DNA of 60,360 nt. It comes from Bacteroidaceae bacterium (GTDB lineage: Bacteria; Bacteroidota; Bacteroidia; Bacteroidales; Bacteroidaceae). The notes beneath the pieces were generated by a model. The model searched no databases and was not told the DNA's origin. It was given only the letters and a program-made list of their open reading frames with translations. Numbering within the stretch: the first letter of the stretch is position 1; every line of letters begins with the position of its first letter. The stretch spans positions 1-60,360 of the forward strand of contig JAFTEV010000021.1 in NCBI GenBank assembly GCA_017453465.1, written 5' to 3'. Positions 8,820-57,566 of this stretch are shown here, piece after piece. Both the position numbers and the translations under genes were made by a program.

Positions 8820-8908
8820 GTGTAAGCAATGCGCCGCATTCGTGTAGGCAATGCTTTGGGTTTGATTGCCTACGCGGGAGCGTTTGGTTGCCTACGCGAT
8901 TCCGACAT
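8820..8908. repeat. 22-bp periodic intergenic array C
   Basis: Four units start at 8820, 8842, 8864 and 8886, exactly 22 bp apart. Units 1-2 carry the core GTGTARGCAATGC; units 3-4 carry its approximate reverse complement, GATTGCCTACGC or GGTTGCCTACGC. The array lies in the 556-bp gap between the divergent ior operon and lysS. It resembles the arrays at 20.5, 45.5, 53.3 and 57.5 kb in period but not in sequence. Confidence 0.75.
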
Positions 8909-9174
8909 TTTCTATACGTAACAGATTCAGTTTGTTTCTGCTGCTCATTTTGAGGCGATAACGCACCGTGTTTTATTGAAAAGTGGATTCTTCCGGCTCC
9001 GAATCAACATTGTTTAACGATAGGAGTTCCGCAGGAGGTGGATTTAACGCCAGTTAACGAGCGTTCTGCTTGTTCGTCTTTTTTCGTTGGACGAAATTTC
9101 CGACATTTGTCATAAAACACAGGCTTTTATGCTTTTTTGTATGTGCACATTTCTTTTTTTTCGTTTACTTTTTG
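8909..9174. other. Rest of the divergent lysS/ior intergenic region
   Basis: No gene is supported here. A loosely repeated TTTAACG appears near 9014, 9044 and 9053, possibly a decayed continuation of the array. The rest is AT-rich and leads into the lysS promoter. Confidence 0.4.
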
Positions 9175-9182
9175 TATCTTTG
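9175..9182 (+). promoter_or_regulatory. lysS promoter -7 box and 5'UTR hairpin
   Basis: TATCTTTG is a full match to the Bacteroidota -7 element, 76 bp before the lysS ATG. The 5' untranslated region has a GGCAGC/GCTGCC hairpin at 9215-9231 within a weaker outer GAGG/CCTC pairing. A 24-codon upstream frame (ATG at 9198) overlaps the lysS start but contains no Lys, so it does not look like an attenuation leader. Confidence 0.6.
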
Positions 9183-9258
9183 CGCCCAGATTTAATCATG
9201 TACTCAGGTTTCGAGGCAGCGAATTGCTGCCGTGGAGCCTCATTAATATGTTTGATAG

Positions 9259-11025
9259 ATGAATATTCTTGAACTTTCCGAACAGGAAATCAACCGCCGC
9301 AACAATTTGCAGGCACTGAGGGACTTAGGCATTGAGCCTTATCCTGCCGCCATGTATCCGACCAACGCTTTCTCTGTAGATGTCATAGCCGAATTTAAAG
9401 ACCCCGCCGTCGATGAAGAGGGCAAGCCCACCGAGCCACTGCGCGAGGTGTGCATTGCGGGCCGCATGATGAGCCGCCGCGTAATGGGCAAGGCCAGCTT
9501 TGTGGAGCTGCAAGACTCGAAGGGCAGGATTCAGGTGTATGTAACACGTGATGACATTTGCCCCGACGAGAACAAGGACCTCTACAACCAGGTGTTCAAG
9601 AAGTTGCTCGACCTGGGCGACTTCATCGGCGTGAAAGGCTTTGTCTTCCGCACACAGACGGGAGAAATTTCGGTTCATGCCCGCGAACTCACCGTGCTGG
9701 CCAAGAGCCTGAAGCCGCTGCCCGTGGTGAAGGAGAAGGACGGACAGGTGTTCGATGCCTTTGAAGACCCCGAACTGCGCTATCGTCAGCGGTATGTTGA
9801 CCTGATTGTGAACAACGGCGTGAAGGAAACGTTCCTGAAGCGTGCCACCATCCTCAGAACCATGCGTCAGGTCTTTGACGAGGCCGGATTCACGGAGGTT
9901 GAGACCCCCATCTTGCAGCAGATTGCAGGTGGTGCCAGTGCACGCCCCTTCATCACCCACCACAATGCGCTGAATGTGGACCTCTACTTGCGTATTGCTA
10001 CGGAACTCTACCTCAAGCGTCTCATCGTGGGTGGCTTCGAGGGTGTTTACGAGATTGGCCGCAACTTCCGCAACGAGGGTATGGACCGCAGTCACAATCC
10101 CGAATTTACCTGCATGGAACTCTATGTGGCCTACAAGGACTACAACTGGATGATGTCGTTCACCGAGCAACTGCTGGAGAAGATTTGCGTGGCTGTCAAC
10201 GGCACAACCGAAGTGAAGATTGGCGACAACATTGTCAGCTTCAAGGCTCCCTATCGCCGCTTGCCCATTTTGGAGGCCATCAAGGAAAAGACGGGCTACG
10301 ACCTGGAGCAGATGACTGAGGACGAAATGCGCGAGGCAGCCAAGAAGGTAGGCGTGGAGGTGGACGACACGATGGGACGTGGCAAGCTGATTGACGAAAT
10401 CTTCGGCGAAACCTGCGAAGGCTCGTTCATCCAGCCCACATTTATTATAGACTACCCCGTGGAAATGTCTCCGCTGACTAAGATGCACCGCTCTAAGCCT
10501 GGATTGACCGAGCGTTTTGAGCTGATGGTCAACGGCAAGGAACTGGCCAATGCCTACTCCGAACTGAACGACCCCATCGACCAGGAAGAACGCTTCGTGG
10601 AGCAGATGAAGCTGGCCGACAAGGGCGACGACGAGGCCATGGTCATCGACCACGACTTCCTGCGTGCCCTTCAGTATGGTATGCCTCCGACGAGTGGCAT
10701 CGGCATCGGCATTGACCGTCTGGCCATCCTGATGACGGGTCAGCCCACCATCCAGGAGGTGCTGCTGTTCCCCACCATGAAGCCCGAAAAGAAGGCTCCA
10801 CGCGACGCTGTGGAGAAGTTTGTGGAAGTGGGCTTCCAGCCCGACATCGTGCCCGTGCTCTACAAGGTGGGCTACAATCTGGTTGCAGACCTTGAGGGTG
10901 CTGGTGCACAGAAGGTTCAGCAGCAGATAGGTGAGGTAATCAAGAAGTATAAGTTGGACGTTCAGAAGCCTACGGTGGATGAGCTGAGCAATATATTATG
11001 CAATTTAAAAGTACAGGCAGAGTAG
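9259..11025 (+). CDS. lysS: Lysyl-tRNA synthetase (class II)
   Basis: This 588-aa enzyme charges tRNA-Lys. The OB-fold anticodon domain is in residues ~55-150. Class II motif 2 is FRNEGMDRSHNPEFT and motif 3 is GIGIGIDRLAILM. It is about 80 residues longer than E. coli LysS: after motif 3 there is a C-terminal extension (from about residue 515) with alternating helices ending in a [12 protein letters not shown] segment, as seen in other Bacteroidales. The ATG at 9259 follows the promoter at 9175. Its 3' end overlaps gpsA by 28 bp. Confidence 0.97.
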   Translation: MNILELSEQEINRRNNLQALRDLGIEPYPAAMYPTNAFSVDVIAEFKDPAVDEEGKPTEPLREVCIAGRMMSRRVMGKASFVELQDSKGRIQVYVTRDDICPDENKDLYNQVFKKLLDLGDFIGVKGFVFRTQTGEISVHARELTVLAKSLKPLPVVKEKDGQVFDAFEDPELRYRQRYVDLIVNNGVKETFLKRATILRTMRQVFDEAGFTEVETPILQQIAGGASARPFITHHNALNVDLYLRIATELYLKRLIVGGFEGVYEIGRNFRNEGMDRSHNPEFTCMELYVAYKDYNWMMSFTEQLLEKICVAVNGTTEVKIGDNIVSFKAPYRRLPILEAIKEKTGYDLEQMTEDEMREAAKKVGVEVDDTMGRGKLIDEIFGETCEGSFIQPTFIIDYPVEMSPLTKMHRSKPGLTERFELMVNGKELANAYSELNDPIDQEERFVEQMKLADKGDDEAMVIDHDFLRALQYGMPPTSGIGIGIDRLAILMTGQPTIQEVLLFPTMKPEKKAPRDAVEKFVEVGFQPDIVPVLYKVGYNLVADLEGAGAQKVQQQIGEVIKKYKLDVQKPTVDELSNILCNLKVQAE

Positions 11026-12002
11026 CCATCTTGGGCGGTGGCAGCTGGGCTACGGCCATCGCAAAGATTGTGATGCACCACGAGGAGCACATCACGTGGT
11101 ACATGCGCCGTGACGACCGCATTGAGGACTTCAAGCGGCTGCACCACAATCCTGCGTACCTGCCGAACCTGCATTTCGATGTGGACCGCATCACGTTCAG
11201 CAGTGACATCAACGAGGTGGTGAAGAACAACGACACGCTTATCTTTGTCATTCCCTCGCCTTACGTCAAGAGTCACCTGAAGAAGCTGAAGGCGAACATG
11301 CGCGAAAAGATGGTCGTCACGGCCATCAAGGGTATCGTGCCCGAAGAGTCGCTCACCGTGAGCCGCTACTTCTGCAAGGTCTATAACATTCCTGAAGAAC
11401 AGATTGCCTGCATCGGTGGACCCAGCCATGCCGAGGAGGTGGCACTCGACCGACTGTGTTACCTCACAGTGGGCTGTCGCGACCTGGAGAACGCTCAGGT
11501 TGTGGCCGACTTGCTGACAAACAAGTTTGTGAAGACCAGCGTGAGTCACGACATCGAGGGCATTGAGTATTCGTCTGTGCTGAAGAATGTCTATGCCATT
11601 GCCGCTGGTATCTGTCACGGCTTAAAGCTGGGCGACAACTTCCAGGCAGTGCTGGCTTGCAACGCTTTGCAGGAAATGAAGCGGTTTCTCACCTCTGTGC
11701 AACCCGACGAGGAGCGTCATGTTTCTTCGACGGCCTATCTGGGTGACCTCTTGGTGACGATGTATTCCAACTTCTCGCGCAACCGTGTCTTTGGCACCAT
11801 GATAGGGCAGGGCTACAGTGTGAAGACGGCCCAGCTGGAGATGGAAATGATTGCCGAGGGTTACTATGGCACGGACTGCATGAAGGTGCTCAACAAGAAA
11901 TACCACGTCAACATGCCCATCCTCGATGCGGTATATAATATATTGTATGGCAAAATCAGTCCCTCCGTGGAAATCAAGATACTCAGCGACAGTTTACGAT
12001 AA
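10998..12002 (+). CDS. gpsA: Glycerol-3-phosphate dehydrogenase [NAD(P)+]
   Basis: This 334-aa cytoplasmic enzyme reduces dihydroxyacetone phosphate to sn-glycerol-3-phosphate for phospholipid synthesis. The Rossmann motif [12 protein letters not shown] lies near residue 12. The KGI(V) segment and the catalytic-Lys region [10 protein letters not shown] (about residue 195) are present. The start lies 28 bp inside the lysS 3' end, indicating coupled translation in a lysS-gpsA-pgi operon. Confidence 0.95.
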
Positions 12003-12064
12003 ATACGCATGATGTGGCTGGAATAAAACAAAAAATTAAATTCACAAAATCAAAAAATAAGGTT

Positions 12065-13399
12065 ATGCAAATCAACATCTCGAAGGCGCAGCAGTTCATT
12101 GCTGCTGACGCAGTGAAAAACTTAGAGCCACAGGTGAAGGCTGCACAGACAGCACTCGAACAGGGCACTTGTGCAGGTAATGATTTCTTGGGTTGGCTCC
12201 ATCTGCCCAGTTCTATCACACCTGAGTTTATCAGCGAAATCAACCAGACAGCCAAGGTGCTGCAGGACAACTGCGAGGCCGTAGTCGTTGCTGGCATCGG
12301 TGGCAGCTACCTCGGTGCACGCATGGTCATTGATGCGCTCTCCAACACCTTCGGTTGGCTCCAGCCCTCCAAGGCTCCGCGCATTCTTTTTGCCGGTAAC
12401 AACATTGGTGAGGATTATCTCTCGGAACTCATTGGCTACCTGAAGACCGTGAACTTCGGTGTTATCAACATTTCAAAGTCGGGCACTACTACAGAGACTG
12501 CCATCACCTTCCGTCTCTTGAAGAAGATGTGTGAAGACCAGCGTGGCAAGGACATGGCCAAGAAAGTCATCGTAGCCATTACGGATGCCAAGAAGGGTGC
12601 AGCTCGCACCACGGCTGACAAGGAAGGCTACAAGAGCTTCGTCATCCCCGACAACGTGGGTGGCCGCTTCTCTGTGCTCACTCCCGTAGGTTTGCTGCCC
12701 ATCGCTGTGGCAGGCTTTGACATTGCCGCCCTTGTGAAGGGTGCACAGGACATGGAGGCACAGTGCGATGTAAATGCACCGCTTAGCCAGAATCCCGCCG
12801 CCATTTATGCAGCTGTGCGCAATGCTATCTACCAGAGTGGCAAGAAGATTGAGATTATGGCCAACTATCAGCCCAAGCTCCACAACCTGGGCGAATGGTG
12901 GAAGCAGCTCTACGGCGAAAGCGAAGGCAAGGACGGCAAGGGCATATTCCCCGCATCGGTTGACCTCACCACCGACCTGCACTCCATGGGCCAGTGGATT
13001 CAGGACGGCGAGCGCACCATCTTCGAGACGGTCATCTCCGTGGAGCATCCCAACAGCATTCTGGAAGTGCCCAGCGACGCAGAGAACCTTGACGGTCTGA
13101 ACTTCCTGGCTGGCAAGCGCATCGACCAGGTGAACAAGATGGCTGAACTTGGCACGCAGCTGGCTCACGTGGATGGCGGTGTGCCCAACATCAAGATTAG
13201 TATCGAGAAGCTGGATGAATACAACATCGGCCAGCTCATCTACTTCTTCGAGAAGGGTTGCGGTATTTCTGGCCTTATCCTTGGTGTGAACCCCTTCAAC
13301 CAGCCAGGCGTAGAAGCTTATAAAAAGAATATGTTTGCCCTGCTCAACAAGCCAGGCTATGAGGCTGAAAGCAAGGCTATACAGGAAAGACTGAAATAA
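12065..13399 (+). CDS. pgi: Glucose-6-phosphate isomerase
   Basis: This 444-aa enzyme interconverts glucose-6-phosphate and fructose-6-phosphate. Family signatures are [21 protein letters not shown] (phosphosugar-binding SIS motif), the [14 protein letters not shown] signature and a C-terminal Lys in the [13 protein letters not shown] region. The frame extends 17 codons upstream, but ATG at 12065 gives the usual N-terminus [11 protein letters not shown]. It lies 62 bp after gpsA and ends at a bidirectional terminator. Confidence 0.96.
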
Positions 13400-13406
13400 A
13401 GAAAAA

Positions 13407-13441
13407 CTCCCAAACGCTCCTTATAGGGGAGGGTTTGGGAG
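13407..13441. terminator. Bidirectional terminator between pgi and queF
   Basis: CTCCCAAAC at 13407-13415 pairs with GTTTGGGAG at 13433-13441, and CTCC with GGAG closes further inside. A-rich sequence precedes and CCTTTT follows, so it can serve both convergent genes. Confidence 0.8.
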
Positions 13442-13448
13442 AAACCTT

Positions 13449-13913
13449 TTATTCGTGGCTGAGCATTCGTTGTTCAGCCATTTTTTCATACTTTGTGCCG
13501 GGCCGTCCGTAGTTGGCGTAGGGGTAGATGCTGATGCCGCCACGAGGGGTGAAGAAGCCTGTTACCTCGATGTATTTAGGATTCATCAGCTTGATGAGGT
13601 CCTTCATGATTTTGTTTACGCAGTCTTCGTGGAAGTCGCCGTGATTGCGGAAGGAAAAAAGGTAGAGCTTCAGCGACTTGCTCTCTACCATCCGCTCGTC
13701 GGGCAGGTAGCTGATGCGGATTTCTGCAAAGTCGGGCTGCCCTGTGATGGGGCATAAGCTGGTGAACTCTGGGCAATTGAACCTGACCCAGTAGTCGTTC
13801 TCCTTGTGTTTGTTCTCGAATGTTTCCAGCACTTCGGGCGCATAGTCCTGTCGGTACTCTGTCTTTTTGCCCAGGGCCTGTAGTCCCTCTTGTTCTCTTT
13901 CTGTGTTCATCAT
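13449..13913 (-). CDS. queF: 7-cyano-7-deazaguanine (preQ0) reductase
   Basis: This 154-aa type I (unimodular) QueF reduces preQ0 to preQ1 with NADPH in queuosine synthesis. The catalytic Cys54 and Asp61 lie in [16 protein letters not shown]. The family-defining [15 protein letters not shown] motif and the HEDCVNKI segment follow. Two adjacent ATGs (13913 and 13910) are equivalent. A -7 box lies 21 bp upstream. The gap is too short for a preQ1 riboswitch. No other queuosine gene is in the window. Confidence 0.96.
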
Positions 13914-13933
13914 TGTGAAATTGTTTTTGTTTG

Positions 13934-13941
13934 CAAAGTTA
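13934..13941 (-). promoter_or_regulatory. -7 box for queF
   Basis: The minus strand reads TAACTTTG 21 bp before the queF ATG, matching the Bacteroidota -7 consensus. Confidence 0.6.
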
Positions 13942-14024
13942 AGGATTTTTTTCGAGAAAGCAGCAATATGGCCTCATCTTTACAAGTTTACGGGCTTTCG
14001 TTTGCAAGGATGAGGATTTTTCCC

Positions 14025-14032
14025 TATCTTTG
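14025..14032 (+). promoter_or_regulatory. -7 box for the GT/DUF4922 cluster
   Basis: TATCTTTG lies 28 bp before the ATG at 14060. It rules out the in-frame TTG at 14030 as start, because that codon sits inside the promoter. Confidence 0.65.
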
Positions 14033-14059
14033 CCCGACAATTTTAACTGTTATCAGAAT

Positions 14060-16555: not shown

Positions 16556-16623
16556 ACCTTTCGTGAGAGAAGTGCGCTGAGAGGGGCTTTTTCGCCCCTT
16601 GTGTTCGGGCGACGGAAAGTAGT

Positions 16624-17880: not shown

Positions 17881-17883
17881 CCC

Positions 17884-20423: not shown

Positions 20424-20461
20424 AGTGCTGCTGTTGCAGTAGCATCGTTTTCTCGTTGCGG

Positions 20462-20593
20462 TGGCACAGTTCTGGTAATTCACTACCACTGCAAAGGTAT
20501 TTCATTACCACTGCGGTGGTAAAGTTTTACCACTGTGATGGTAAAGTTTTACCACCATAGTGGTAATGTTTTACCAATGCAGTGGAAACACTG
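20462..20593. repeat. 22-bp periodic palindrome array E
   Basis: Units begin TACCA at 20484, 20506, 20528, 20550 and 20572, exactly 22 bp apart, with decayed flanking copies. Individual units are near-perfect palindromes such as TTACCACTGCGGTGGTAA at 20505-20522. The array fills the 318-bp gap after the permease gene and ends about 75 bp before the -7 box of the FGE-fold gene. It could form a row of RNA hairpins or DNA binding sites spaced at two helical turns. Confidence 0.85.
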
Positions 20594-20666
20594 GTAAAAT
20601 GCAGTGCTGCTGCAACAACTACAATAAAAAAGCGCGTCAAATCTTTGTGGTGCGCAAAAAAAGCCC

Positions 20667-20674: not shown

Positions 20675-20741
20675 TCGTCAAACGAATCAATAATAAAAAT
20701 TTACCCCTTAAAACAACCCTTAAAAACAACTTTAAAAAGCA

Positions 20742-22202
20742 ATGAAACTACTCAAGTGTTTTTCGCTGCTGCTTGCAGCCTCACTGCTGCCCATGGCTGT
20801 CGGTGCACAAGTGATTAACGGCGACCTGAACCACAACAATGCGCTTGATGTGGGCGATGTAACGCTGGTCATTGACGGCTACCTCACGGGCGAGACCGAG
20901 GTCATTAGCTCCGAAGTGGACCACTTCCGTGAAGATAACACCCTCGTTGTGGGCACATGGTACAAGTCAAAGACCGACGTGCTCGTACTCAACGCTGACG
21001 GCACCACCAACTACGGCTCCGGCTACACCTACCGCTTCCTTCCCTCTCAGGGCTGCATCCTCTTCTTCAACGCTTCGCAGACTCCTGTTGACTACATTAA
21101 AGTAATCTACTTTAACAGCAACTCGATGGGCAAGTACATGGCAGCCAAGCTGCCCGGCAAGGACGCGCTGACCATCTACTACACAGAGCCTATCCAGCCC
21201 GTGGAGACCATCACCCTCAGCCAGACCACGCTCTCTTTGCAGCTCGATAGCGACCCCATCCGCCTCACGGCCACCGTGGAGCCAGCAGATGCCGACAACA
21301 CAGCCGTGGTCTGGACATCGAGCAATGAGGACGTGGCCACCGTCTCGTCGCGTGGTTCGGTTGAAGCCATGGGCGAAGGCACAACCACTATTACCTGCAC
21401 CGCAGCCGACGGCAGCGGCGTGAAGGCCACCTGCGAGGTGACCGTGGGCGAGACCACGCCGACCCCACAGCCCAGCGGCACCATCACTTACACGGTGAAG
21501 GGTGTGTCGTTCAAGATGGTGTCCGTCAGCGGCGGCACGTTCAAGATGGGCGCGCAGAAGACAAGCAGCTCCAGCTCCAACTACGATGCCGATGCTTATG
21601 ATAATGAAGCCCCTGTTCACAATGTGACCCTGAGCGACTATCAGATAGGCGAGACCGAGGTGACACAAGCCCTCTGGGTTGCCGTCATGGGCAGCAATCC
21701 TTCCAACTGGCTGGGTGACAACCTGCCCGTGGAGACAGTGAGCTGGAACGACTGCCAGGAGTTCATCACGAAGCTGAACGCAGCTACGGGCATGACCTTC
21801 CGCCTGCCCACCGAGGCCGAGTGGGAGTTTGCGGCACGCGGCGGCACAAAGAGTCAGGGCTACAAGTACTCAGGCAGCAACACCCTCGGCGATGTGGCGT
21901 GGTACACGGAGAACAGCAGCAGCAAGACCCATGCAGTGGGCACGAAGCAAGCCAACGAGCTTGGCCTCTATGACATGAGCGGCAACGTGTGGGAATGGTG
22001 CAGCGACTGGTATGCAAGCACGTATGATTCTTCTGCCCAGTCCAATCCTACTGGTCCTACCACCGGCTCTAGCCGGGTGCGACGTGGCGGCAGCTGGTAC
22101 AACAATTCCGGGAGCTGTCGTGTTACCTATCGCAACTTCAATACGCCGACGATCAGTAGCTACTACAATGGTCTGCGCCTCGCCCTTAGTTCTACAAGAT
22201 AA
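20742..22202 (+). CDS. Secreted dockerin-like/BIG2/FGE-sulfatase-fold protein, candidate DGR target
   Basis: This is a 486-aa protein. The signal peptide is residues 1-23. A dockerin-like repeat (GDLNHNNALDVGDVTLVIDG) lies at ~27-46. An unassigned strand-rich region (~50-150) is followed by a BIG2 immunoglobulin-like domain (~153-237, VWTSSNEDVATVSSRG). A formylglycine-generating-enzyme (SUMF1) C-type-lectin-like domain runs from ~250 to 486 (FRLPTEAEWEFAARGG, GNVWEWCSDWY, RRGGSWYNN). The catalytic Cys pair of true FGE is not evident, so it is more likely a binding domain. The last 40 codons match the layout of variable regions in diversity-generating retroelement target proteins. It stands alone, flanked by repeat-rich gaps. 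Confidence 0.85.
   Translation: MKLLKCFSLLLAASLLPMAVGAQVINGDLNHNNALDVGDVTLVIDGYLTGETEVISSEVDHFREDNTLVVGTWYKSKTDVLVLNADGTTNYGSGYTYRFLPSQGCILFFNASQTPVDYIKVIYFNSNSMGKYMAAKLPGKDALTIYYTEPIQPVETITLSQTTLSLQLDSDPIRLTATVEPADADNTAVVWTSSNEDVATVSSRGSVEAMGEGTTTITCTAADGSGVKATCEVTVGETTPTPQPSGTITYTVKGVSFKMVSVSGGTFKMGAQKTSSSSSNYDADAYDNEAPVHNVTLSDYQIGETEVTQALWVAVMGSNPSNWLGDNLPVETVSWNDCQEFITKLNAATGMTFRLPTEAEWEFAARGGTKSQGYKYSGSNTLGDVAWYTENSSSKTHAVGTKQANELGLYDMSGNVWEWCSDWYASTYDSSAQSNPTGPTTGSSRVRRGGSWYNNSGSCRVTYRNFNTPTISSYYNGLRLALSSTR
22077..22199 (+). other. Candidate DGR variable region (VR)
   Basis: The C-terminal codons after GGSW include TAC, TCC, AGC, ACC, TAT, TTC, ATC, AGT, AGC, TAC and TAC. Each can derive from an AAC or AAT template codon by changing only A positions, while the framework (CGT, GGC, TGT, CGC, CCG, CTG) stays fixed. 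This is the expected trace of adenine-specific mutagenic retrohoming into an FGE-fold target. No template repeat or reverse transcriptase is in this window, so the call is provisional. Confidence 0.45.
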
Positions 22203-31650: not shown

Positions 31651-32531
31651 TGCTGCATTGTTTCGCGCTTCCAGCCTCTGCCCAACTGCGGAAGAACGCT
31701 GCCTACCAAGCCTACATTGACAAGTACAAAGACCTGGCAGTGGAGCAGATGCGCAAGTACCACATTCCTGCCAGCATCACGTTGGCACAGGGACTCTTCG
31801 AGAGTGGGGCGGGGCAGAGCCAGCTGGCCAAAAACTCGAACAACCACTTCGGCATCAAGTGTCACTCCGACTGGAAAGGCAAGCGCATCTATCGCAACGA
31901 CGACAATCCCAACGACTGCTTCCGTGTGTATTCCTCTGTACGAGATAGTTACGAAGACCACTCCCGATTTCTCCAGGCTCCCCGCTACAGCCGACTTTTC
32001 AAGCTGAATCCCAAGGACTACAAGGGTTGGGCCAAAGGGCTGAAAGCCTGTGGCTATGCTACGCTATCGACCTATGCACAGCGGCTCATCGACGTTATCG
32101 AACTCTACCAACTTTATCAATACGACCGTGGCAAACAGGCCACATACGTAGTCCCAGCCGACTACCACCAGATGTATCTCGTCAACAATCTCGACTGCAT
32201 CATAGCCCAAGACGGCGACACCTGGGAAAGCATTTCAGCCGAAATGCGTCAGCGTGGCATCCGTCTCTCTCCACGCAAGTTGCGGAAATACAACGAAGCT
32301 CCCTCCAAGGACTTTTTCCCCGCCGTCGGCACACACATCTTCCTCCAGAAGAAAGCCAAACATGCCGACAAGAACAAATATCCCCGTGACTACTGGCACC
32401 ACGTCCAGGCTGGCGAATCCATGTACTCCGTAGCCCAGCAGTACGGCATCCGCCTGAAGAATCTCTACAAACTCAACTTCCGCACTGCCGACTATGTGCC
32501 AGAACAGGGCGACCTTTTGCGAGTAAGGTGA
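31575..32531 (+). CDS. Glucosaminidase (peptidoglycan hydrolase) with LysM
   Basis: This protein is up to 318 aa. The glucosaminidase domain (~45-185) has the catalytic Glu in TLAQGLFESGAGQS and the NHFGIKCH motif; it cleaves GlcNAc-beta-1,4 bonds in peptidoglycan. A C-terminal LysM (HHVQAGESMYSVAQQYGIRL, ~272-315) binds glycan. No ATG lies between cdd and the enzyme domain; the only in-frame starts are TTG (31575, 31650). The signal peptide's hydrophobic core (SSFLIAVLLHCFALPASAQ) is partly encoded by the tandem repeat. The original start may have been overwritten; expression is uncertain. Confidence 0.82.
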   Translation: MSINSSFLIDFVELKVPHSSFLIAVLLHCFALPASAQLRKNAAYQAYIDKYKDLAVEQMRKYHIPASITLAQGLFESGAGQSQLAKNSNNHFGIKCHSDWKGKRIYRNDDNPNDCFRVYSSVRDSYEDHSRFLQAPRYSRLFKLNPKDYKGWAKGLKACGYATLSTYAQRLIDVIELYQLYQYDRGKQATYVVPADYHQMYLVNNLDCIIAQDGDTWESISAEMRQRGIRLSPRKLRKYNEAPSKDFFPAVGTHIFLQKKAKHADKNKYPRDYWHHVQAGESMYSVAQQYGIRLKNLYKLNFRTADYVPEQGDLLRVR

Positions 32532-32532
32532 C

Positions 32533-32663
32533 TAATTTGACAATTTACAATTTGACAATTGGCTACGCCGAGCTAAAGGTTCACAAATTGGGTATGGACA
32601 AGCAAGCCATAGATACTTCATTTGTAAATTGTCAAATTGTAAATTGTCCAATTGTCCAATTTG
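32533..32663. repeat. Inverted short-tandem-repeat element I
   Basis: AATTTGACAATTTACAATTT-type sequence at 32534-32560 is inverted at 32627-32653 with 26 of 27 positions matching. The intervening loop holds an AGCTAAA unit at 32559-32581. The remaining gap to the GH5 gene contains its promoter. Confidence 0.85.
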
Positions 32664-34643: not shown

Positions 34644-34842
34644 GTGAACCTTTAGCTCGACGAAGTCAAAAGTGAAAAATCTGAGTTACCAAAATAGTGA
34701 AAAGTGAACCTTTAGCTCGACGAAGTCAACCTTTAGCTCGACGAAGTCAAAATCTGAAATTCAGTTTACCCAACGTAAGGCAGTGTTTAGCCCCTGTAAC
34801 CTAGATTTTTCACTTTTCACTATTCACTATTCACTTAAAAAA
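34642..34842. repeat. Inverted short-tandem-repeat element J with three AGCTAAA units
   Basis: AAGTGAAAAATCT (34670-34682) is inverted at 34803-34815, and AATAGTGAAAAGTGAA (34693-34708) at 34809-34824, both perfectly. Three reverse-orientation AGCTAAA units lie at 34647-34669, 34707-34729 and 34728-34750, the last two in tandem at 21 bp. The element fills the gap between GH5 and the esterase and begins at the GH5 stop codon. Confidence 0.88.
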
Positions 34843-37243: not shown

Positions 37244-37501
37244 AAAAAACAGCCAAGGGAAGGGGTAACAACGGGTAACCCCCCAAAAAGGAAAAGCTAA
37301 AAGGATTAAAGGTTAATTGTTAGGTTATTATTAGGTAGTTTTTATTAGTTAGTTAAATCGTTCTTCATGTTCCCGTTACCCCTTCCCCCCTGGCTCATTT
37401 TATTGGACTAATCGACTTTAGTCGCTTTCGGAAGAAAGAATTTGTAATTGGACAATTTGACAATTGATTTCACCCAGCTAAAAAATTGGCTTTACCGAGC
37501 T
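37244..37501. other. Gap after the esterase gene
   Basis: An imperfect inverted pair (AGCCAAGGGAAGGGGTAAC at 37251-37269 and its complement around 37376-37395) encloses T-rich sequence and may terminate the esterase transcript. CAATTGGACAATTTGAC-type repeats follow at ~37444, and two divergent AGCTAAA units lie at ~37464 and 37486, 22 bp apart. No gene is seen. Confidence 0.55.
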
Positions 37502-37620
37502 AAAAATTCATGAAAATTCATGGTCAATTCATGGCAATTCATGTCGAATAAAAAAACATTGACAGGTTCTTTTTTTAACATGAATTGCCATGAATTGACC
37601 ATGAATTTTCATGAATTTTT
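37502..37620. repeat. Perfect 43-bp inverted repeat (element K)
   Basis: Positions 37502-37544 are an exact reverse complement of 37578-37620, around a 33-nt loop. Each arm is built of AATTCATG motifs at 10-11 bp spacing (four per arm). It sits between convergent ends: the esterase on plus and the HTCS on minus. The RNA on either strand would fold into a very long hairpin. Confidence 0.95.
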
Positions 37621-37693
37621 TATGAACACGCCATGAATTATATGTTCAATCAATTTTGAACAGATTCTTAAAACACGTTGCAACGTATTTCAT

Positions 37694-45485: not shown

Positions 45486-45580
45486 AAAGTTGACGCAACG
45501 GCGTTGTTTTTGAAAACAACGAGCGATGTTTTTAGAAACAACGGCGTTGTTTTCAAAAACAACGCCGTTGCGTCAACTTT
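45486..45580. repeat. Palindrome array L, perfect 36-bp inverted repeat
   Basis: Positions 45486-45521 are the exact reverse complement of 45545-45580. Inside are three palindromic units, 45502-45521, 45524-45543 and 45545-45564 (CGTTGTTTTTGAAAACAACG and variants), spaced 22 and 21 bp. It lies between the terminator at 45322 and the acyl-CoA ligase promoter. The rest of the 549-bp gap (45581-45757) shows no gene. Confidence 0.92.
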
Positions 45581-45765: not shown

Positions 45766-45802
45766 CGCGATAATAATAAATAATGTATAAGACAAACGAA
45801 AG

Positions 45803-49824: not shown

Positions 49825-49828
49825 GTCA

Positions 49829-50782: not shown

Positions 50783-51883
50783 TTATTTCAGCGTTGAATA
50801 ATACTCGTCCAGCAATTTCTTTGCAGCCACGAAGGAGGTAATCTTGCCTCCCAGCACATCGCGCTCCATGTCGTCAATCTGCTGCTTCACACGGGGATTG
50901 AAGTAGAAGTTATTCTTCAGGTGCTCGTTGATGCTCTCGTACATCCAGTACTTTGACTGCTCGTTGCGTTTATACTGGAAATAGCCGCTTTCCTTGGTCT
51001 GTTCAATGTGGTCGAACACCATTTTCAGCACCTCGTCAATGCCCAGTTCGTAGAATCCGCTATAGCACAGCACCTGCGGCATGAGGCCGCTTTCGGGCAT
51101 GGGGAACAGGTGGAGCGCGTTGCGGAAATGGCTTGCGGCCAGCTTCGCTTTCTCCACGTTCTCGCCGTCGGCCTTGTTGATGACGATGCCGTCTGCAATC
51201 TCCATGATGCCGCGCTTGATGCCCTGCAGTTCGTCGCCCGTGCCGGCCAGCTGGATGAGCAGGAAGAAATCGACCATGGAGTGACACGCGGTCTCGCTCT
51301 GACCCACACCGACGGTCTCCACAAAGATGTTGTTGTAGCCCGCCGCTTCACACAGGATGATGGTCTCCCTCGTTTTCCGCGCCACGCCGCCCAGGGAACC
51401 CGCCGTTGGCGAAGGGCGGATGAACGACTTGGGGTGTACAGCCAGCTTTTCCATGCGCGTCTTGTCGCCCAGGATGCTGCCTTTCGTCTTCTCCGACGAG
51501 GGGTCGATGGCCAGCACAGCCAGTTTTCCGCCGTAGTTCTGGAGCAGGTGCGTGCCGAATGCGTCAATGCTCGTACTCTTTCCCGCCCCCGGTACGCCGC
51601 TGATGCCAATGCGCACCGAGTTGCCGCTGAAGGGCAGACACTTCTCTATCACCTCCTGTGCCAGGGCCTGGTGGTCGGGGTGCACGCTCTCGATGAGTGT
51701 CACGGCCTGTCCCAGCATAGAGACATCGCCCTTCAGGATGCCCTCTACATATTCGCCAGCCGTGAAGAGGCGGTGCCGCCGCTTCCGCATCTGACTGAGG
51801 TAAGGGTTCACGATGCTGGGTTGCGCAACGCCCGCATTCACTTGCAGGCCTGCATATTCGGTGCTATTTTCTGGATGTTCCAT
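50783..51883 (-). CDS. meaB: Methylmalonyl-CoA mutase-associated GTPase MeaB
   Basis: This 366-aa G3E-type GTPase protects and gates the B12-dependent methylmalonyl-CoA mutase used in succinate-to-propionate fermentation. The Walker A is GISGVPGAGKSTSIDAFG (~95-112). The Mg-binding and switch segments (VAIDPSSEKTKG-type LAIDPSS, GGVARKTRE, ETVGVGQSE) are present. The length is standard. The mutase genes are not in the window. porQ follows with no gap. Confidence 0.94.
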   Translation of the reverse strand: MEHPENSTEYAGLQVNAGVAQPSIVNPYLSQMRKRRHRLFTAGEYVEGILKGDVSMLGQAVTLIESVHPDHQALAQEVIEKCLPFSGNSVRIGISGVPGAGKSTSIDAFGTHLLQNYGGKLAVLAIDPSSEKTKGSILGDKTRMEKLAVHPKSFIRPSPTAGSLGGVARKTRETIILCEAAGYNNIFVETVGVGQSETACHSMVDFFLLIQLAGTGDELQGIKRGIMEIADGIVINKADGENVEKAKLAASHFRNALHLFPMPESGLMPQVLCYSGFYELGIDEVLKMVFDHIEQTKESGYFQYKRNEQSKYWMYESINEHLKNNFYFNPRVKQQIDDMERDVLGGKITSFVAAKKLLDEYYSTLK

Positions 51884-51892
51884 TCGGTTTTG

Positions 51893-51918
51893 AGTGAATA
51901 GTGAAATGTGAAATATCT
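51893..51918. repeat. Short copy of the element J motif
   Basis: The sequence AGTGAATAGTGAAATGTGAA and the next six bases match the inverted right arm of element J (34.8 kb) apart from small changes. It lies upstream of meaB in the 82-bp gap after the DUF1573 gene. It shows that the short tandem motifs recur at unlinked loci. Confidence 0.6.
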
Positions 51919-51965
51919 AAGTTTCAGGGTCGCAGCCGCCTTGCGTGGTTTTTTCACCAACGCCG

Positions 51966-53030
51966 TCAGCGTTCAAACAGGACGTTCACCACCTCCTTGC
52001 AGTGTTGAGGGTCGTTGGTGATAATGAGCACACGCGGCTCGGCCTTGCTCAGGTCCAGGTACTTGGCCTCCACAGTGATGTTCATGGCAATCTCCTCTCC
52101 CGCCTTCAGCTCACGCTTGGGCAGGCTCACCTGCACAGCCTGGTTGAAGGCCTGGATGCTCGTCAGCATGAGCGGCGCAGAGCCTTGATTCTTGAGGGTG
52201 ACTGTGCCCTTCAGCTTCGATTTCTTGCCCAGCTTGCCGAGGCGCAGTTCTGTGGTCGAGAGGGTAAAGCGCGGCTGCAGGGCCTGTGCCTCAGCCTCGT
52301 GCATGTCGGGCAGCAGTACGGCTGAGACGGTAAGGTCGTTGCCGGTGCCCACACGGTCTCCGCTGTAGCGCGCCACATAAATCTGCGTCTGGTTCAGCCC
52401 CAGTGTCGGTACCAGGTCGCCGTGCAGCGTCAGCTCTATCTTCCCCTTGCGCCCACGGGCCAGCATCTTTGGCGTGGCGCGGGCAGTGATGTACGACGGC
52501 AGGTGCATCAGCTGCGGCTCGTACACCTCTGTGCCGTCGTTCAGCACTTCAAGGTACACTTTCGCGCTGTCGCCCTTGTGCACATCGGGAAACTCAATGT
52601 TGTTCGTGCTCAGGCAGATGTCATCTATTCGGTAGGGGAAGGCTTGCTCAATGGCCTGCTGTTCGCCGTTGGTCACGTGGCCCTTCATCCGGATTCTTGT
52701 GGGCTTGGCCGACTGGTTGGTATAGACATCGATGAAGCGGTCGAAGTGTCCCAGCATCATCGCGTCGTAAGTAATCTGAATCTCCCCGGTTGTCCCTTTC
52801 GTGACAGCCGCCGAAGGCCATTTCACGCTCAGGCAACCGCATCCCGCATCCACCTCTCTGATTTGCAGTGGCTGGCGGCCATCCTTGTTGGTGAAGCGGA
52901 ACGTGGCCGTCACGGGCGACTTCCACAGCACTTTCCCCACGTCCACAGTGTTCCGCTCAAAAGAAATCTTCTGAGCCAGCACAATCTGTGCACTGAGCAA
53001 AAGTGTCAACAAAACTATATATCTGTTCAT
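51966..53030 (-). CDS. Secreted DUF1573-type protein
   Basis: This 354-aa protein has a signal peptide (YIVLLTLLLSAQIVLAQ). It has two or three Ig-like DUF1573/ASH-type beta-sandwich repeats: first TATFRFTNKDGRQPLQIREV with the DAGCGCLSV hallmark, later SKLKGTVTLKNQGSAPLMLTS. Such domains are common in Bacteroidota periplasmic proteins of unknown role. It is the upstream gene of the meaB-porQ-cmk-ispH strand and has its own -7 box; an 82-bp gap to meaB may or may not contain a promoter. Confidence 0.87.
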   Translation of the reverse strand: MNRYIVLLTLLLSAQIVLAQKISFERNTVDVGKVLWKSPVTATFRFTNKDGRQPLQIREVDAGCGCLSVKWPSAAVTKGTTGEIQITYDAMMLGHFDRFIDVYTNQSAKPTRIRMKGHVTNGEQQAIEQAFPYRIDDICLSTNNIEFPDVHKGDSAKVYLEVLNDGTEVYEPQLMHLPSYITARATPKMLARGRKGKIELTLHGDLVPTLGLNQTQIYVARYSGDRVGTGNDLTVSAVLLPDMHEAEAQALQPRFTLSTTELRLGKLGKKSKLKGTVTLKNQGSAPLMLTSIQAFNQAVQVSLPKRELKAGEEIAMNITVEAKYLDLSKAEPRVLIITNDPQHCKEVVNVLFER

Positions 53031-53080
53031 TCAATGCTGTCTTTATATATTGATAAACGCTTTTTCAGCCTATTTCAGTA

Positions 53081-53088
53081 CAAAGGTA
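53081..53088 (-). promoter_or_regulatory. -7 box for the DUF1573 gene
   Basis: The minus strand reads TACCTTTG 51 bp before the ATG at 53030. Confidence 0.6.
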
Positions 53089-53289
53089 CAAAAGTTTTTC
53101 TTATTTCACCCCGAATTTAAAGAATTTTCTCGAATTTTCGCAGCTATTATGCTTCTTCCTTGCCACTTCACTTCCCCCCGGCTGCCACTACATTCCCCTC
53201 TGCCTCCCACAGCCTTTCATTTATACATAATGTGTGAATCCTTCTTGCTCAGTGTGCGGATTAAACGGAGTGGGATAGGCAATAAAACT

Positions 53290-53373
53290 AAGAATCATTG
53301 TTTGATTCTTGTAAATCATTGTTTGATTCTTAAGAATCATTGTGTGATTCTTAAGAATCAAACAATGATTTAT
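53290..53373. repeat. 21-bp periodic palindrome array M
   Basis: Four units start at 53290, 53311, 53332 and 53353, exactly 21 bp apart. Units 1-3 are palindromic (AAGAATCA, 5-nt centre, TGATTCTT). Unit 4 has its centre inverted, so that 53313-53331 is the perfect complement of 53353-53371. It lies in a 602-bp gap between the DUF1573 promoter and the panB terminator; no gene is supported in the gap. Confidence 0.9.
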
Positions 53374-53562
53374 AGATTGAAAGCCTATCTCGCTGCGTTT
53401 CTTCTTCATTCTGGGCAAAAAAGAAAGCCGACTGTCCGCCCGATTGGGACGAACTGTCGGCATAGGCAGAAAGGTGTGCCGCTTCTGTTTCTGCCCTTCT
53501 GCACGCTGGCCTTCCTGCATGGATAAACAATGTGGAAATCAGCATGGTGGCTGAAGGGTAAA

Positions 53563-53604
53563 GACAAAAACAGGCCATCTGCCTAAGTTGGGCAGATGGC
53601 CTGT
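53563..53604 (-). terminator. panB terminator
   Basis: ACAGGCCATCTGCC (53570-53583) and GGCAGATGGCCTGT (53591-53604) form a perfect 14-bp stem with a 7-nt loop. On the minus strand it is followed by TTTTTGTCTTT, 29 bp past the panB stop. Confidence 0.88.
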
Positions 53605-53632
53605 GTGGTTAAATCGTAGTTGTGTTTCGCCG

Positions 53633-54454
53633 TTAGTATTGCTCGTTTTCGTTGGGGAAGTCGCTGTTCTTTACGTCCTCGATGTAGTGGCCAATGGCGT
53701 CGGTCATGATGGTGTGGAGGTCGGCGTAGCGGCGCAGGAACTTGGGGCTGAAGCCTTGAGTCTTGCCCAGCATGTCGTCGATGACGAGCACTTGGCCGTC
53801 CACACCGCCGCCGGCTCCGATGCCTATGACGGGGATGGTGAGTTCCTGTGCTACCTGAGCGGCGAGTTTGGCTGGAATCTTCTCCAGCACAACGGCAAAG
53901 CAGCCTGCTTCTTCCAGTGCGTGTGAGTCGCTGATGAGTTTTTGGGCCTCGGCTTCCTCACGCGCGCGCACCGTGTACGTACCGAATTTATTTATAGACT
54001 GCGGTGTGAGGCCGAGATGCCCACAGATGGGTATGCCAGCGTCCAGTATTTTCTTGACTGCGGGCAGAATTTCTACGCCGCCTTCCAGCTTGAGGGCATC
54101 GCAGTGGGTTTCCTTCATGATGCGGATGGCGTTGCTGACAGCCTCGGTCTCGTTCACCTGATAGGTGCCGAAGGGCATGTCGCAGACGACGAGTGCACGC
54201 TTGGTGGCGCGGACTACGGCCTTGGCGTGGTAAATCATCTGGTCAAGCGTGATGGGCAGTGTGGTCCAGTTGCCAGCCATGACGTTGCTGGCAGAGTCGC
54301 CCACAAGGATGATGTCCATGCCGGCTTCGTCTGTGATTTGTGCGGTGGTGTAGTCGTAGGATGTGAGCATGGCAATCTTCTTGCCTTCATGTTTCATCTG
54401 AATCAATCGGTGGGTGGTGACCTTGCGTTGGTCCTCTACTAAATAACCTGCCAT
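53633..54454 (-). CDS. panB: 3-methyl-2-oxobutanoate hydroxymethyltransferase
   Basis: This 273-aa enzyme is the first step of pantothenate synthesis, adding a hydroxymethyl group from methylene-THF to 2-oxoisovalerate. Signatures are [29 protein letters not shown] (metal-binding Asp) and [16 protein letters not shown], with [11 protein letters not shown] late in the barrel. Length is normal. It is a single gene with its own -7 box and terminator; panC and panD are not in view. Confidence 0.97.
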
Positions 54455-54485
54455 AATGTTTTTGAGTTTTTAAGTTTTTATGCCG

Positions 54486-54493
54486 CAAAATTA
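54486..54493 (-). promoter_or_regulatory. -7 box for panB
   Basis: The minus strand reads TAATTTTG 32 bp before the panB ATG. Confidence 0.6.
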
Positions 54494-54588
54494 CGAAATA
54501 TATCAATTGGGCGTGCTGAATTTTCCATAAAAACGCACACAAATATTTTTTTTTAGCTGAAAATTTGGTTTATATCATTGAAAAAACT

Positions 54589-54596
54589 TACATTTG
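54589..54596 (+). promoter_or_regulatory. Promoter of ppdK
   Basis: TACATTTG lies 62 bp before the ATG with a TTTGG about 22 bp further upstream (54564-54568), a fair -33/-7 pair of the Bacteroidota type. Confidence 0.6.
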
Positions 54597-54657
54597 TAAA
54601 CGAAAATAGTATTCTATTTTATAAAACACATTTTTTCAACCTTAATAAACGTTTTTT

Positions 54658-57378
54658 ATGGCTCAAAAAAGAGTTTACACCTTCGGTAATGGTAAGGCCG
54701 AAGGTAATGCATCAATGCGTGAGGAACTGGGTGGTAAGGGTGCAAACCTTGCCGAGATGAACCTGATTGGTGTGCCAGTGCCTCCTGGTTTTACTATTAC
54801 TACTGATTGCTGCAACGAGTATTACGAAGTGGGCGAGGAGAAAATCAAGGAACTCCTGCAGGACGAAGTGAATGCAGCCGTAGCTCACACAGAGGCACTG
54901 ATGAACTGCAAGTTCGGCGACGTGAACAACCCGCTGCTCGTCAGCGTGCGTTCTGGTGCCCGTGCTTCTATGCCTGGTATGATGGATACCATCCTGAACC
55001 TTGGTCTGAACGACGAAGTAGCTGAGGGCATGGTGAAGAAGACTAACAACCCGCACTTTGTTTACGACTCTTATCGTCGTTTCGTACAGATGTACGGCGA
55101 CGTGGTGATGGGCTTGAAGCCCGTGAACAAGGAAGACATCGACCCCTTTGAGGCCATCATCGAGAAGGTGAAGGAGGAGCAGGGCGTCACACTGGACAAG
55201 GACCTCTCCGTAGAGTCGCTGAAGAAGCTGGTTCAGCTCTTCAAGGCTGCCATCAAGGAGCAGACGGGCCAGGACTTCCCGACAGACCCAATCGTTCAGC
55301 TCTGGGGTGCTATCTGCGCCGTGTTCCGCAGCTGGATGAACGAGCGTGCCATCCTGTACCGCAAGATGGAGGGTATTCCAGACGAGTGGGGTACTGCCGT
55401 GAGCGTCATGGCAATGGTATTCGGCAACATGGGCGACACCAGTGCTACAGGTGTATGCTTCAGCCGCGATGCCGGTAACGGCGAGAACCTGTTCAACGGT
55501 GAGTACCTCATCAACGCACAGGGCGAGGACGTTGTGGCTGGTATCCGCACACCACAGCAGATTACAAAGATTGGTTCTCAGCGCTGGGCTGAGCGTGCCG
55601 GCATTTCCGAGGAAGTACGTGCCAGCAAGTATCCGTCAATGGAAGAGGCCATGCCGAAGCTCTATGCTGAACTGAACGAGATTCAGGACAAGCTGGAGAA
55701 GCACTACAAGGATATGCAGGACATGGAGTTCACCGTTCAGGAAGGCAAGCTCTGGTTCCTCCAGACTCGTAACGGCAAGCGCACAGGTACGGCAATGGTA
55801 AAGATTGCTATGGACCTGGTACGCGAAGGTCTTATCGATGAGAAGACTGCCATCCTGCGCTGCGAACCCCAGAAGCTGGACGAACTGCTTCACCCGGTAT
55901 TCGACAAGGATGCCCTGAAGAAGGCCAAGGTCATCACTCAGGGTCTGCCCGCTTCGCCAGGTGCTGCATGCGGTCAGATTGTGTTCCATGCTGACGATGC
56001 TCAGGAGTGGCACGCCAATGGTCACAAGGTGGTGATGGTTCGTATCGAGACCAGCCCCGAAGACCTCGCAGGTATGGCTTCTGCCGAAGGTATCCTTACT
56101 GCACGTGGTGGTATGACCAGCCACGCTGCTGTGGTTGCCCGTGGTATGGGTAAGTGCTGTGTCAGCGGTGCTGGTGCCATCAACGTTGACTACAAGACTA
56201 AGACTGTGGAAATCGAGGGCGTTACCTACAAGGAGGGCGACTACATCTCTCTGAACGGTACGACAGGTCAGGTTTATGCAGGTGAGGTTCCAACGAAGGC
56301 TGCCGAACTCAGCGGCGACTTCAAGACGCTGATGGACCTCTGCGACAAATACACTAAGCTGCAGGTTCGCACCAACGCCGACACGCCACACGACGCTCAG
56401 GTTGCCCGTGCTTTCGGTGCCAAGGGTATCGGTTTGACTCGTACAGAGCATATGTTCTTCGACGACCAGAAGATTATCGCCATGCGTGAGATGATTCTCT
56501 CCGACACGGTGGAAGGTCGCGAGAAGGCGCTTGCCAAGTTGCTGCCATACCAGAAGGCTGACTTCTACGGCATCCTGAAGGCTATGGACGGTCTGCACGT
56601 GAACATCCGTCTGCTCGACCCGCCACTCCACGAGTTCGTACCACACGATCTGAAGGGACAGCAGGTTATGGCTGACGAGATGGGCGTTGACATCAAGGTC
56701 ATCCAGCAGCGTGTAGCTTCTCTTGCCGAGAACAACCCAATGCTGGGTCACCGTGGTTGCCGTCTGGGCATCACATTCCCCGAAATCACAGCCATGCAGA
56801 CTCGCGCCATCCTCGGTGCTGCTTGCCAGCTGAAGAAGGAAGGCTTCGACCCACATCCAGAAATCATGGTTCCGCTCATCGGTATCCTCTACGAGCTGAA
56901 GCAGCAGAAGGAAATCATCCAGGTTACAGCCAAGGAAGTGTTTGCCGAGGAAGGCATCGAGATTCCATTCGAAATCGGTACGATGATTGAGATTCCACGT
57001 GCAGCCCTCACTGCCGACAAGATAGCTAAGGAGGCTGAGTACTTCTCATTCGGTACTAACGACTTGACGCAGATGACCTTCGGCTACTCTCGTGACGACA
57101 TCGCCAGCTTCCTCCCCGTTTACTTGGAGAAGAAGATTCTGAAGGTTGACCCCTTCCAGGTTCTCGACCAGAACGGTGTCGGCCAGCTCATCAAGATGGC
57201 CGTCGAGAAGGGCCGCGCAGTTCGTCCAGGACTCCGCACAGGTATCTGTGGCGAGCACGGTGGTGAACCATCATCTGTGAAGTTCTGCGCCAAGATTGGC
57301 ATGGACTACGCTTCTTGCTCACCCTTCCGTGTGCCCATCGCACGCCTGGCCGCCGCGCAGGCAGCGGTCGAGGAATAA
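54658..57378 (+). CDS. ppdK: Pyruvate, phosphate dikinase
   Basis: This 906-aa enzyme interconverts pyruvate/ATP/Pi and PEP/AMP/PPi. The N-terminal nucleotide-binding domain has KGANLAEMNLIGVPVPPGFT and RSGARASMPGMMDT. The swivelling phospho-His domain has GGMTSHAAVVARGMGKCC (His at ~487). The C-terminal PEP barrel has GIGLTRTEHMFF and the catalytic Cys in GICGEHGGEPSS. The full length is normal. Codon choice here is strongly biased, as in highly expressed genes. It has its own promoter and terminator. Confidence 0.98.
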   Translation: MAQKRVYTFGNGKAEGNASMREELGGKGANLAEMNLIGVPVPPGFTITTDCCNEYYEVGEEKIKELLQDEVNAAVAHTEALMNCKFGDVNNPLLVSVRSGARASMPGMMDTILNLGLNDEVAEGMVKKTNNPHFVYDSYRRFVQMYGDVVMGLKPVNKEDIDPFEAIIEKVKEEQGVTLDKDLSVESLKKLVQLFKAAIKEQTGQDFPTDPIVQLWGAICAVFRSWMNERAILYRKMEGIPDEWGTAVSVMAMVFGNMGDTSATGVCFSRDAGNGENLFNGEYLINAQGEDVVAGIRTPQQITKIGSQRWAERAGISEEVRASKYPSMEEAMPKLYAELNEIQDKLEKHYKDMQDMEFTVQEGKLWFLQTRNGKRTGTAMVKIAMDLVREGLIDEKTAILRCEPQKLDELLHPVFDKDALKKAKVITQGLPASPGAACGQIVFHADDAQEWHANGHKVVMVRIETSPEDLAGMASAEGILTARGGMTSHAAVVARGMGKCCVSGAGAINVDYKTKTVEIEGVTYKEGDYISLNGTTGQVYAGEVPTKAAELSGDFKTLMDLCDKYTKLQVRTNADTPHDAQVARAFGAKGIGLTRTEHMFFDDQKIIAMREMILSDTVEGREKALAKLLPYQKADFYGILKAMDGLHVNIRLLDPPLHEFVPHDLKGQQVMADEMGVDIKVIQQRVASLAENNPMLGHRGCRLGITFPEITAMQTRAILGAACQLKKEGFDPHPEIMVPLIGILYELKQQKEIIQVTAKEVFAEEGIEIPFEIGTMIEIPRAALTADKIAKEAEYFSFGTNDLTQMTFGYSRDDIASFLPVYLEKKILKVDPFQVLDQNGVGQLIKMAVEKGRAVRPGLRTGICGEHGGEPSSVKFCAKIGMDYASCSPFRVPIARLAAAQAAVEE

Positions 57379-57406
57379 TCGAAAGATGCTGAAAATCAGT
57401 TACATA

Positions 57407-57441
57407 AAGGGCAAGTATCTGGGAAACAGGTACTTGCCCTT
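57407..57441 (+). terminator. ppdK terminator
   Basis: AAGGGCAAGTA (57407-57417) pairs perfectly with TACTTGCCCTT (57431-57441), followed by AATTATTTG. Confidence 0.8.
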
Positions 57442-57501
57442 AATTATTTGTGCATGTTCTGCACGTTCTAAATGCAGAATAAGATGCCGAAAACGGGGCA
57501 A

Positions 57502-57566
57502 ATGTTTCCCAAAAATCAGGGGTATGTTTCCCAAAAATCAGTGCCTGTTTTCCAAAAACAATCGGG
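57502..57566. repeat. 22-bp tandem array N
   Basis: Two nearly identical units start at 57502 and 57524 (ATGTTTCCCAAAAATCAG plus four variable bases), and a third diverged unit at about 57545. It lies between the ppdK terminator and the integrase gene. Units here are direct repeats and not clear palindromes. The remaining gap up to 57683 holds no gene and probably contains the element boundary. Confidence 0.75.

Follow-up and report, generated by a model that had tools for sequence, protein, structure and literature searches.

The window analysed here, a stretch of 60,360 nucleotides, is contig C97 (JAFTEV010000021.1) of the metagenome-assembled genome (MAG) of a Bacteroidaceae bacterium (G000; 3.16 Mb, 108 contigs, 85% complete, 6% contaminated), and its closest named records were MAGs of rumen Bacteroidales and Bacteroidaceae. 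Five of its intergenic gaps carry short arrays with a period of 21-22 bp, and all five were present where a sequence-only reading of the window had placed them. Array A (8820..8908), in a gap between divergent genes, has 22-bp units, four in all: a direct pair of the GTGTAGGCAATGC type and, facing it, an inverted pair of the GATTGCCTACGCG type. Array B (20484..20594) comprises about five 22-bp units, GGTAAAGTTTTACC palindromes of which the first are degenerate (five by pattern, with at most 2 mismatches). Element C (45486..45580) is exactly 95 bp long and bears 24-bp perfect terminal inverted repeats (AAAGTTGACGCAACGGCGTTGTTT), with dyads of the half-site AAACAWCG at about 21 bp. Element D (53275..53388), delimited by alignment of its copies, spans about 114 bp from ATAGGCAA at the 5' end to GCCTAT at the 3' end (family consensus TGCCTAT). 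Its terminal inverted repeats, from the same alignment, are ATAGGCA/TGCCTAT, and its four dyads AATCA-N5-TGATT (53293..53370) start at 53293, 53314, 53335 and 53356, a spacing of exactly 21 bp. Array E (57498..57566), upstream of a recombinase-like gene, has three units in direct orientation, at spacings of 22 and 21 bp, and no dyad. Many of the units had been described as palindromes or as occurring in both orientations. Dyad symmetry was confirmed in B, C and D; in A, direct repeats are arranged as an inverted pair, and E is a plain direct repeat.

The periodicity of each array was evaluated from its best self-match over lags 8-33, compared with 1000 dinucleotide shuffles. The best lags (identity) were 22 for A (0.55), 22 for B (0.72), 21 for C (0.54), 21 for D (0.71) and 22 for E (0.64), and the observed maximum was reached in 0 of the 1000 shuffles for every array. 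Genome-wide autocorrelation was determined in a sample made up of the window and 20 further stretches (363 kb), with 157 gaps (48 kb) and, as coding control, genes longer than 600 bp (296 kb). Pairs of 8-mers at lags 21 and 22 numbered 175 and 200 in the gaps, 1.8 and 1.6 in shuffles, and 64 and 7 in the coding control. Individual gaps of at least 100 bp without N were also scored for an exact 9-mer match at a given lag, G021 being left out and the figures being samples of each genome, own and relatives. A match was found at lag 21 in 19 of 133 gaps and at lag 22 in 23 (shuffle means 0.2 and 0.6). The proposed excess at 21-22 bp was thus borne out, but not as the sole period, because lags 7 and 14 (19 and 18 gaps in the window's genome) are about as frequent in the genus, and a congener also has 23 bp. 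Among congeners, matches at lags 21, 22 and 23 occurred in 8, 2 and 7 of 65 gaps in G002, and matches at lags 21 and 22 in 6 and 10 of 54 gaps in G004 and in 8 and 8 of 74 in G015. In other families of the order the counts at lags 21 and 22 were 2 and 2 of 39 (G020), 0 and 0 of 24 (G025) and 0 and 0 of 15 (G019).

The sequences had been held to differ completely between loci. Whole-genome searches did not support this: A, B, C and D are dispersed families and E alone is unique; the sequence-only reading had seen a single member of each family and therefore took them for unrelated sequences. Array A was found at 40 places (40 of 95 candidates scored), or 36 without four verified redundant contigs; C at 38 places with at least one end, or 36 without two such contigs; D at 32, or 29 without three; B at 7 places plus one 27-bp stub; and E at one place only. 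Six duplicate contig pairs (C81/C106, C84/C11, C94/C88, C105/C82, C89/C83 and C86/C5) were compared and proved 99.99-100% identical, that is, redundant assembly. The place counts are approximate because other redundant pairs may remain (e.g., C12/C92 for C). Contig C81 begins within a D element and contig C82 within a C element, which suggests that these repeats break the assembly. The B units counted by pattern at loci L173-L179 numbered 5, 5, 0, 0, 4, 1 and 2, and one B locus lies in a predicted gene. A 22-bp array of a related B unit is present at locus L041 of RUG14757, 3' of the orthologous major facilitator superfamily gene.

In the D family, four dyads exactly 21 bp apart were found in 25 of the 29 own loci examined (the window copy is L114), which are all 25 loci where dyads were located. 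The dyad pattern located none in the other four, L126 and three loci (L117, L119 and L136) that duplicate counted ones on redundant contigs. In the congener G004, four dyads were present in 6 of 6 D loci examined, out of 8 places. Units at the same position in different copies were the most alike (similarity 0.928), compared with 0.861 for other units of the same copy and 0.871 for other positions in other copies. Together with the fixed unit count and length of C and D, this indicates that whole elements spread and that the arrays did not grow in place.

The C family was similarly constant in length. A search for its ends with at most 2 mismatches gave 71 matches in the genome, 63 of them without mismatch, and 0 in the control. 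Of 33 paired ends, 32 were exactly 95 bp apart and one 52 bp; 5 further ends were single, and no pair found in this 85%-complete MAG encloses a gene. The sole length variant (C102:17134-17185) is a 52-bp element with intact ends and about two units missing. In 22 distinct copies, collected by a script that required 95 bp and near-consensus ends, the ends differed by 1.5% and the interiors by 14.9% on average (maximum 32%), a divergence about tenfold lower at the ends. Within the interior of these copies the half-sites AAACAACG and CGWTGTTT were nearly constant, and the N4 linkers and centres were variable; the linkers varied in sequence while their length was held. In 26 of the 30 C loci listed, where some places are entered once per strand, three junctions (four dyads) spaced 20-22 bp were detected; the remaining four gave 0 or 1.

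Families C and D were searched for in the window's own genome and its congeners, 41 genomes in total. C matched in 6 of them (own, G004 and, weakly, G006, G012, G035 and G039) and D in 3 (own, G004 and, weakly, G013). Congeners carried versions of their own: in G015, a TTTCACGCAGAACTCTATTCGA-type family of 22 bp, present in six of the gaps sampled, together with a 21-22-bp TCGTCGAGAAT type; a 23-bp ATCGATGTCGTCGATGTCGGTCA type in two sampled gaps of G002; and a 22-bp AGTTCT..CCACTGC..GTGGCAT type in several sampled gaps of G004. By eye, the G015 arrays contain single 22-bp units in either orientation with the register kept. The geometry is common to the species; the words are not. Similarity was 0.929 among own D copies, 0.839 among G004 copies, 0.717 for five orthologous own-G004 pairs and 0.730 for 145 non-orthologous pairs. 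D sequences therefore group by species and not by site, since orthologous pairs were no more alike than non-orthologous ones.

Comparison of orthologous sites revealed turnover of the elements between species. Five of the six G004 D loci adjoin a gene orthologous to the neighbour of an own D locus; among these five pairs, both flanking genes were shown to be orthologous only for L128/L216. Two replacements were observed. The G004 D locus L203 lies between orthologues (81% and 66% identity) of the genes flanking the own C locus L087, and the own D locus L127 corresponds to a C-like element, L197, in G004, with both flanking genes at 93-95% identity. C half-sites are lacking in the L127 gap, which has 4 D dyads, and D dyads are lacking in the L197 gap, which has 6 C half-sites. 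The gap that holds C in the window is 549 bp long, and its orthologue in G004 is 145-170 bp without the element. At the D site, aligned on one flank, the G015 gap was seen by eye to contain palindromic units of about 22 bp with a different sequence.

The families also differed in genomic context. D gaps were divergent in 16 cases, tandem in 9 and convergent in 0 (25 of 26 loci classified), compared with 13 divergent, 35 tandem and 9 convergent among 57 sampled gaps of at least 200 bp, an enrichment of D between divergent genes (Fisher p=0.0008). C gaps were tandem in 13 cases, divergent in 3 and convergent in 2 (18 of 19 loci classified), and A gaps divergent in 10, tandem in 8, convergent in 2 and at edges in 2 (22 of 26 loci). 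The flanks of C and D (L084-L142) bear, by eye, degenerate outward arms on both sides with a loose consensus of about 22-bp periodicity, TTTGGTGTGCAGTGCGGGAAAG. The arms often run into a promoter-like TAnnTTTG box (by eye), the sequence of the Bacteroidetes promoter. The idea that the arms are locus-specific inverted repeats was rejected, as within-locus similarity was not above between-locus similarity (C p=0.96, D p=0.25).

We favour, with moderate confidence, a reading in which dispersed non-coding elements of intergenic DNA, with A-D among their copies, would act as platforms that a multimeric DNA-binding protein occupies. In each element, dyad or half-site words lie two helical turns apart (in C and D there are four per element), a spacing by which the sites would face the same side of the DNA. 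The array may then serve a multimeric protein, either transposase-like or of a nucleoid or boundary type, that would itself fix the spacing. The words may drift together within a species either because a single trans-acting protein recognises every copy or through re-seeding by transposition or conversion. Conserved half-sites and varying linkers, mostly without compensating changes, point to protein recognition rather than folding. The pattern in C, with length held and linkers changing, would fit fixed-spacing binding sites with a degenerate position more than a maintained hairpin. The sequence-only reading had deduced a shared mechanism from the shared period. Selection on the period rather than the sequence fits that view, as own and congener families keep 21, 22 or 23 bp, and, of the three mechanisms it offered, binding of a periodic protein fits best.

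Several results weigh against this reading. Neither a binding protein nor a dispersal enzyme was identified in this analysis, and the protein is one that we infer. Because B unit numbers vary, a rule of four units is secure for C and D alone. The full identity of D copies at AATC/GATT is partly by construction, as the search pattern demands these letters, and the divergence of the C ends is biased low by the script's demand for near-consensus ends. At junction 1 of C one pair was G-C in 11 of 22 copies and G-T in the other 11, an alternation that RNA folding would tolerate. The A/T helical-phase signal in the gaps at lag 22 was weak (0.038). No clear excess of target-site duplications was found at 17 C and 25 D loci (offsets 0-29, lengths 3-9). 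Finally, among 17 orthologous own-G004 gaps, a set that includes loci chosen for carrying C or D and misses the L127/L197 pair, arrays were present in both genomes in 2 (L128, D/D; L087, C/D), in the own genome only in 4, in G004 only in 3 and in neither in 8. Array presence was thus uncorrelated (Fisher p=1), so strong selection for retaining an array at a given site is not a general rule.

The alternative that survives best, possible in our view without being probable, is that these are solely selfish elements resembling miniature inverted-repeat transposable elements (MITEs), with dyads that bind a transposase or were merely inherited and a spacing without any role for the host. Multiple intergenic copies without coding capacity and the terminal inverted repeats of C and D are features of MITEs. 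The same explanation gains from the identity of the 24-bp C repeats in 63 of the 71 end matches (up to 2 mismatches allowed), from the roughly tenfold lower divergence of the C ends (near-consensus ends only), from the species restriction and the presence or absence of families between species, and from the BrickBuilt precedent described below. It accounts poorly for the lack of detectable target-site duplication at the 17 C and 25 D loci, for the C ends, which in this 85%-complete MAG were found unpaired or paired at 95 or 52 bp and never around a gene, and for the enrichment of D between divergent genes. The six examined G004 D loci, moreover, lie beside genes that adjoin own D (five) or own C (one) elements.

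Global operator arrays, in which each family would be the site of one transcription regulator governing many promoters, are an unlikely explanation. On 41 of 50 sides the adjoining gene starts downstream of D, and two-turn spacing of dyads would suit co-operative dimers. However, D lies a median of 265 bp from the start codon, the scanned neighbour genes are of mixed function (EPSP synthase, biotin/lipoate ligase, ABC ATPases, TonB plug, HAD hydrolase and others) without evident common role, and C and D swap at two orthologous gaps. Slightly less likely again is selection for strand folding, with hairpins or cruciforms acting as terminators, mRNA 3' structures or in supercoil relief. The dyads are able to fold, inverted 8-mer pairs exceeded expectation at nearly every distance of 12-110 in the gap sample, and the C stem pair mentioned above alternates between G-C and G-T. 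In contrast, two-sided compensatory pair changes in C stems were absent among the 22 copies, and the sixth stem pair was A-A in 11 of 22 copies at two of the three junction stems without a compensating change. No Rfam match was obtained in the window at the gathering threshold, the C linkers differ in sequence and not in length, and read-through transcription from flanking genes is unexpected at D, which lies mostly between divergent genes.

Local tandem growth by slippage or template switching, which covers the other two mechanisms offered by the sequence-only reading, would explain why units are alike within a locus, the variable unit number of B and the resemblance of E and A-type units to simple duplications; it is highly improbable overall and was rejected for C and D on their fixed length and unit count and the closeness of same-position units. 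A suggested link to repetitive extragenic palindromes (REPs) and bacterial interspersed mosaic elements (BIMEs), spread by a REP-associated tyrosine (RAYT, Y1) transposase, is just as improbable: the short dispersed intergenic palindromes would suit it, as would strong Y1 matches in G004 and G015 (some match in 18 of 41 genomes of the genus), but Y1 matches numbered 0 in the window's assembly (an 85% complete MAG) and 0 in the array-bearing G002 (99% complete).

Array E stands apart. Its boxes TTTCCC/TTTTCC lie at 57505, 57527 and 57548, and the adjoining gene (57684..59147, plus strand) encodes a phage-integrase SAM-like domain above the Pfam cut-off and, more weakly and below the cut-off, an Arm-DNA-binding domain. 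In the orthologous gap of G013, TTGACC boxes are spaced 22, 52, 11 and 22. Iterons of plasmid origins are protein-bound direct repeats near 22 bp with two-turn phasing, and only E resembles them, whereas A-D, whose units are dyads or inverted, are spread over many gaps of the chromosome. Array E is probably a plain iterated site by a recombinase-like gene that does not belong with A-D, and we take it as an iterated site of recombinase or replication type.

Further repeats were noted in the window. Tandem Repeats Finder (TRF) reported a 21-bp direct repeat of 2.3 copies (34702..34750), absent from the sequence-only reading, and a 22-bp direct repeat of 2 copies (37462..37506) next to inverted arrays of 10-11 bp (37505-37626). 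Tandem repeats of 7, 8 and 10-11 bp arranged as inverted pairs, which could form long hairpins, occur at 1-89, 8389-8503, 32529-32661 and 37505-37626, and similar sequences recur across the genome sample. Gaps with hairpin-like repeats at L022 (15192-15387), L025 (9442-9635) and L087 (1886-2136) measure 196, 194 and 251 bp, and the corresponding gaps of G004 only 33, 28 and 12 bp; entire palindromic elements were therefore either acquired in the own genome or lost from G004. The gene for an FGE-sulfatase/Big_2 protein (20742-22202) has several partial matches elsewhere in the genome at 72-85% DNA identity.

Porphyromonas gingivalis, which belongs to the same order as the organism of the window, offers one precedent. 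Its BrickBuilt element is described as a dispersed intergenic MITE of 23-nt repeats, with 19 copies, inverted-repeat ends and a restricted host range, 84 to 991 nt long, with a variable unit number, leader and tail segments and IS5-like ends (PMC4596501). C and D share with this description the dispersed intergenic location, the inverted-repeat ends and repeats on the 21-23-nt scale, and differ from it in fixed length, dyad units and the lack of detected target-site duplication (17 C and 25 D loci). REP/BIME and GTAG/CGTC palindromes are reported as dispersed, extragenic, 20-40 bp long and sometimes grouped (PMC3733652); unlike REP/BIME, C and D have four phased dyads per element, and the own assembly has 0 Y1 transposase matches. 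The closest class is that of Subirana and Messeguer, bacterial tandem repeats of 20-23 nt with constant size and variable sequence (PMC8161180, PMC6749651). As set out in PMC8161180, several such families occur per genome, in non-coding DNA, with sequences not conserved between species; the authors noted the two helical turns and suggested a polymerising DNA-bound protein or small RNAs. The present repeats are likewise non-coding and of the same size, with different sequences between families and species. The catalogue in PMC8161180, as presented there, covers Bacillus genomes and arrays with a minimum of four repeats; C and D have four dyads, a fixed length, dispersal and inverted-repeat ends, E has about three units, and TRF copy numbers were 1.9-3.8 for the listed arrays of period 18-26. 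In a further difference from that catalogue, as far as its account goes, some orthologous sites were compared here. The view that no named element answers to the arrays thus does not hold, as both the constant-size variable-sequence repeats and BrickBuilt precede them, at least as these are described in PMC8161180 and PMC4596501. No description of the phased-dyad form in Bacteroidales was found in titles and abstracts of the open-access literature.

The phenomenon is a variant of an already known repeat class, reported earlier without an established explanation. What is new here is the fixed four-dyad geometry, the species-grouped turnover and the replacement between C and D at two orthologous gaps. 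As a caution, arrays that belong to dispersed families may look local and unrelated when a single window is inspected. A wider model, which we consider rather doubtful, is that the genus at large carries interchangeable intergenic platforms of about four phased sites that are read by species-specific multimeric proteins, their words co-evolving with all copies, and that would mark transcription-unit boundaries; a word could be replaced wholesale with the geometry kept. The same geometry occurs with different words within one genome and among congeners, and orthologous sites allow sequences to be compared. Because this geometry recurs, with unit count and length fixed in C and D, what reads the period in these bacteria is directly testable with the 95-bp and 114-bp DNA.

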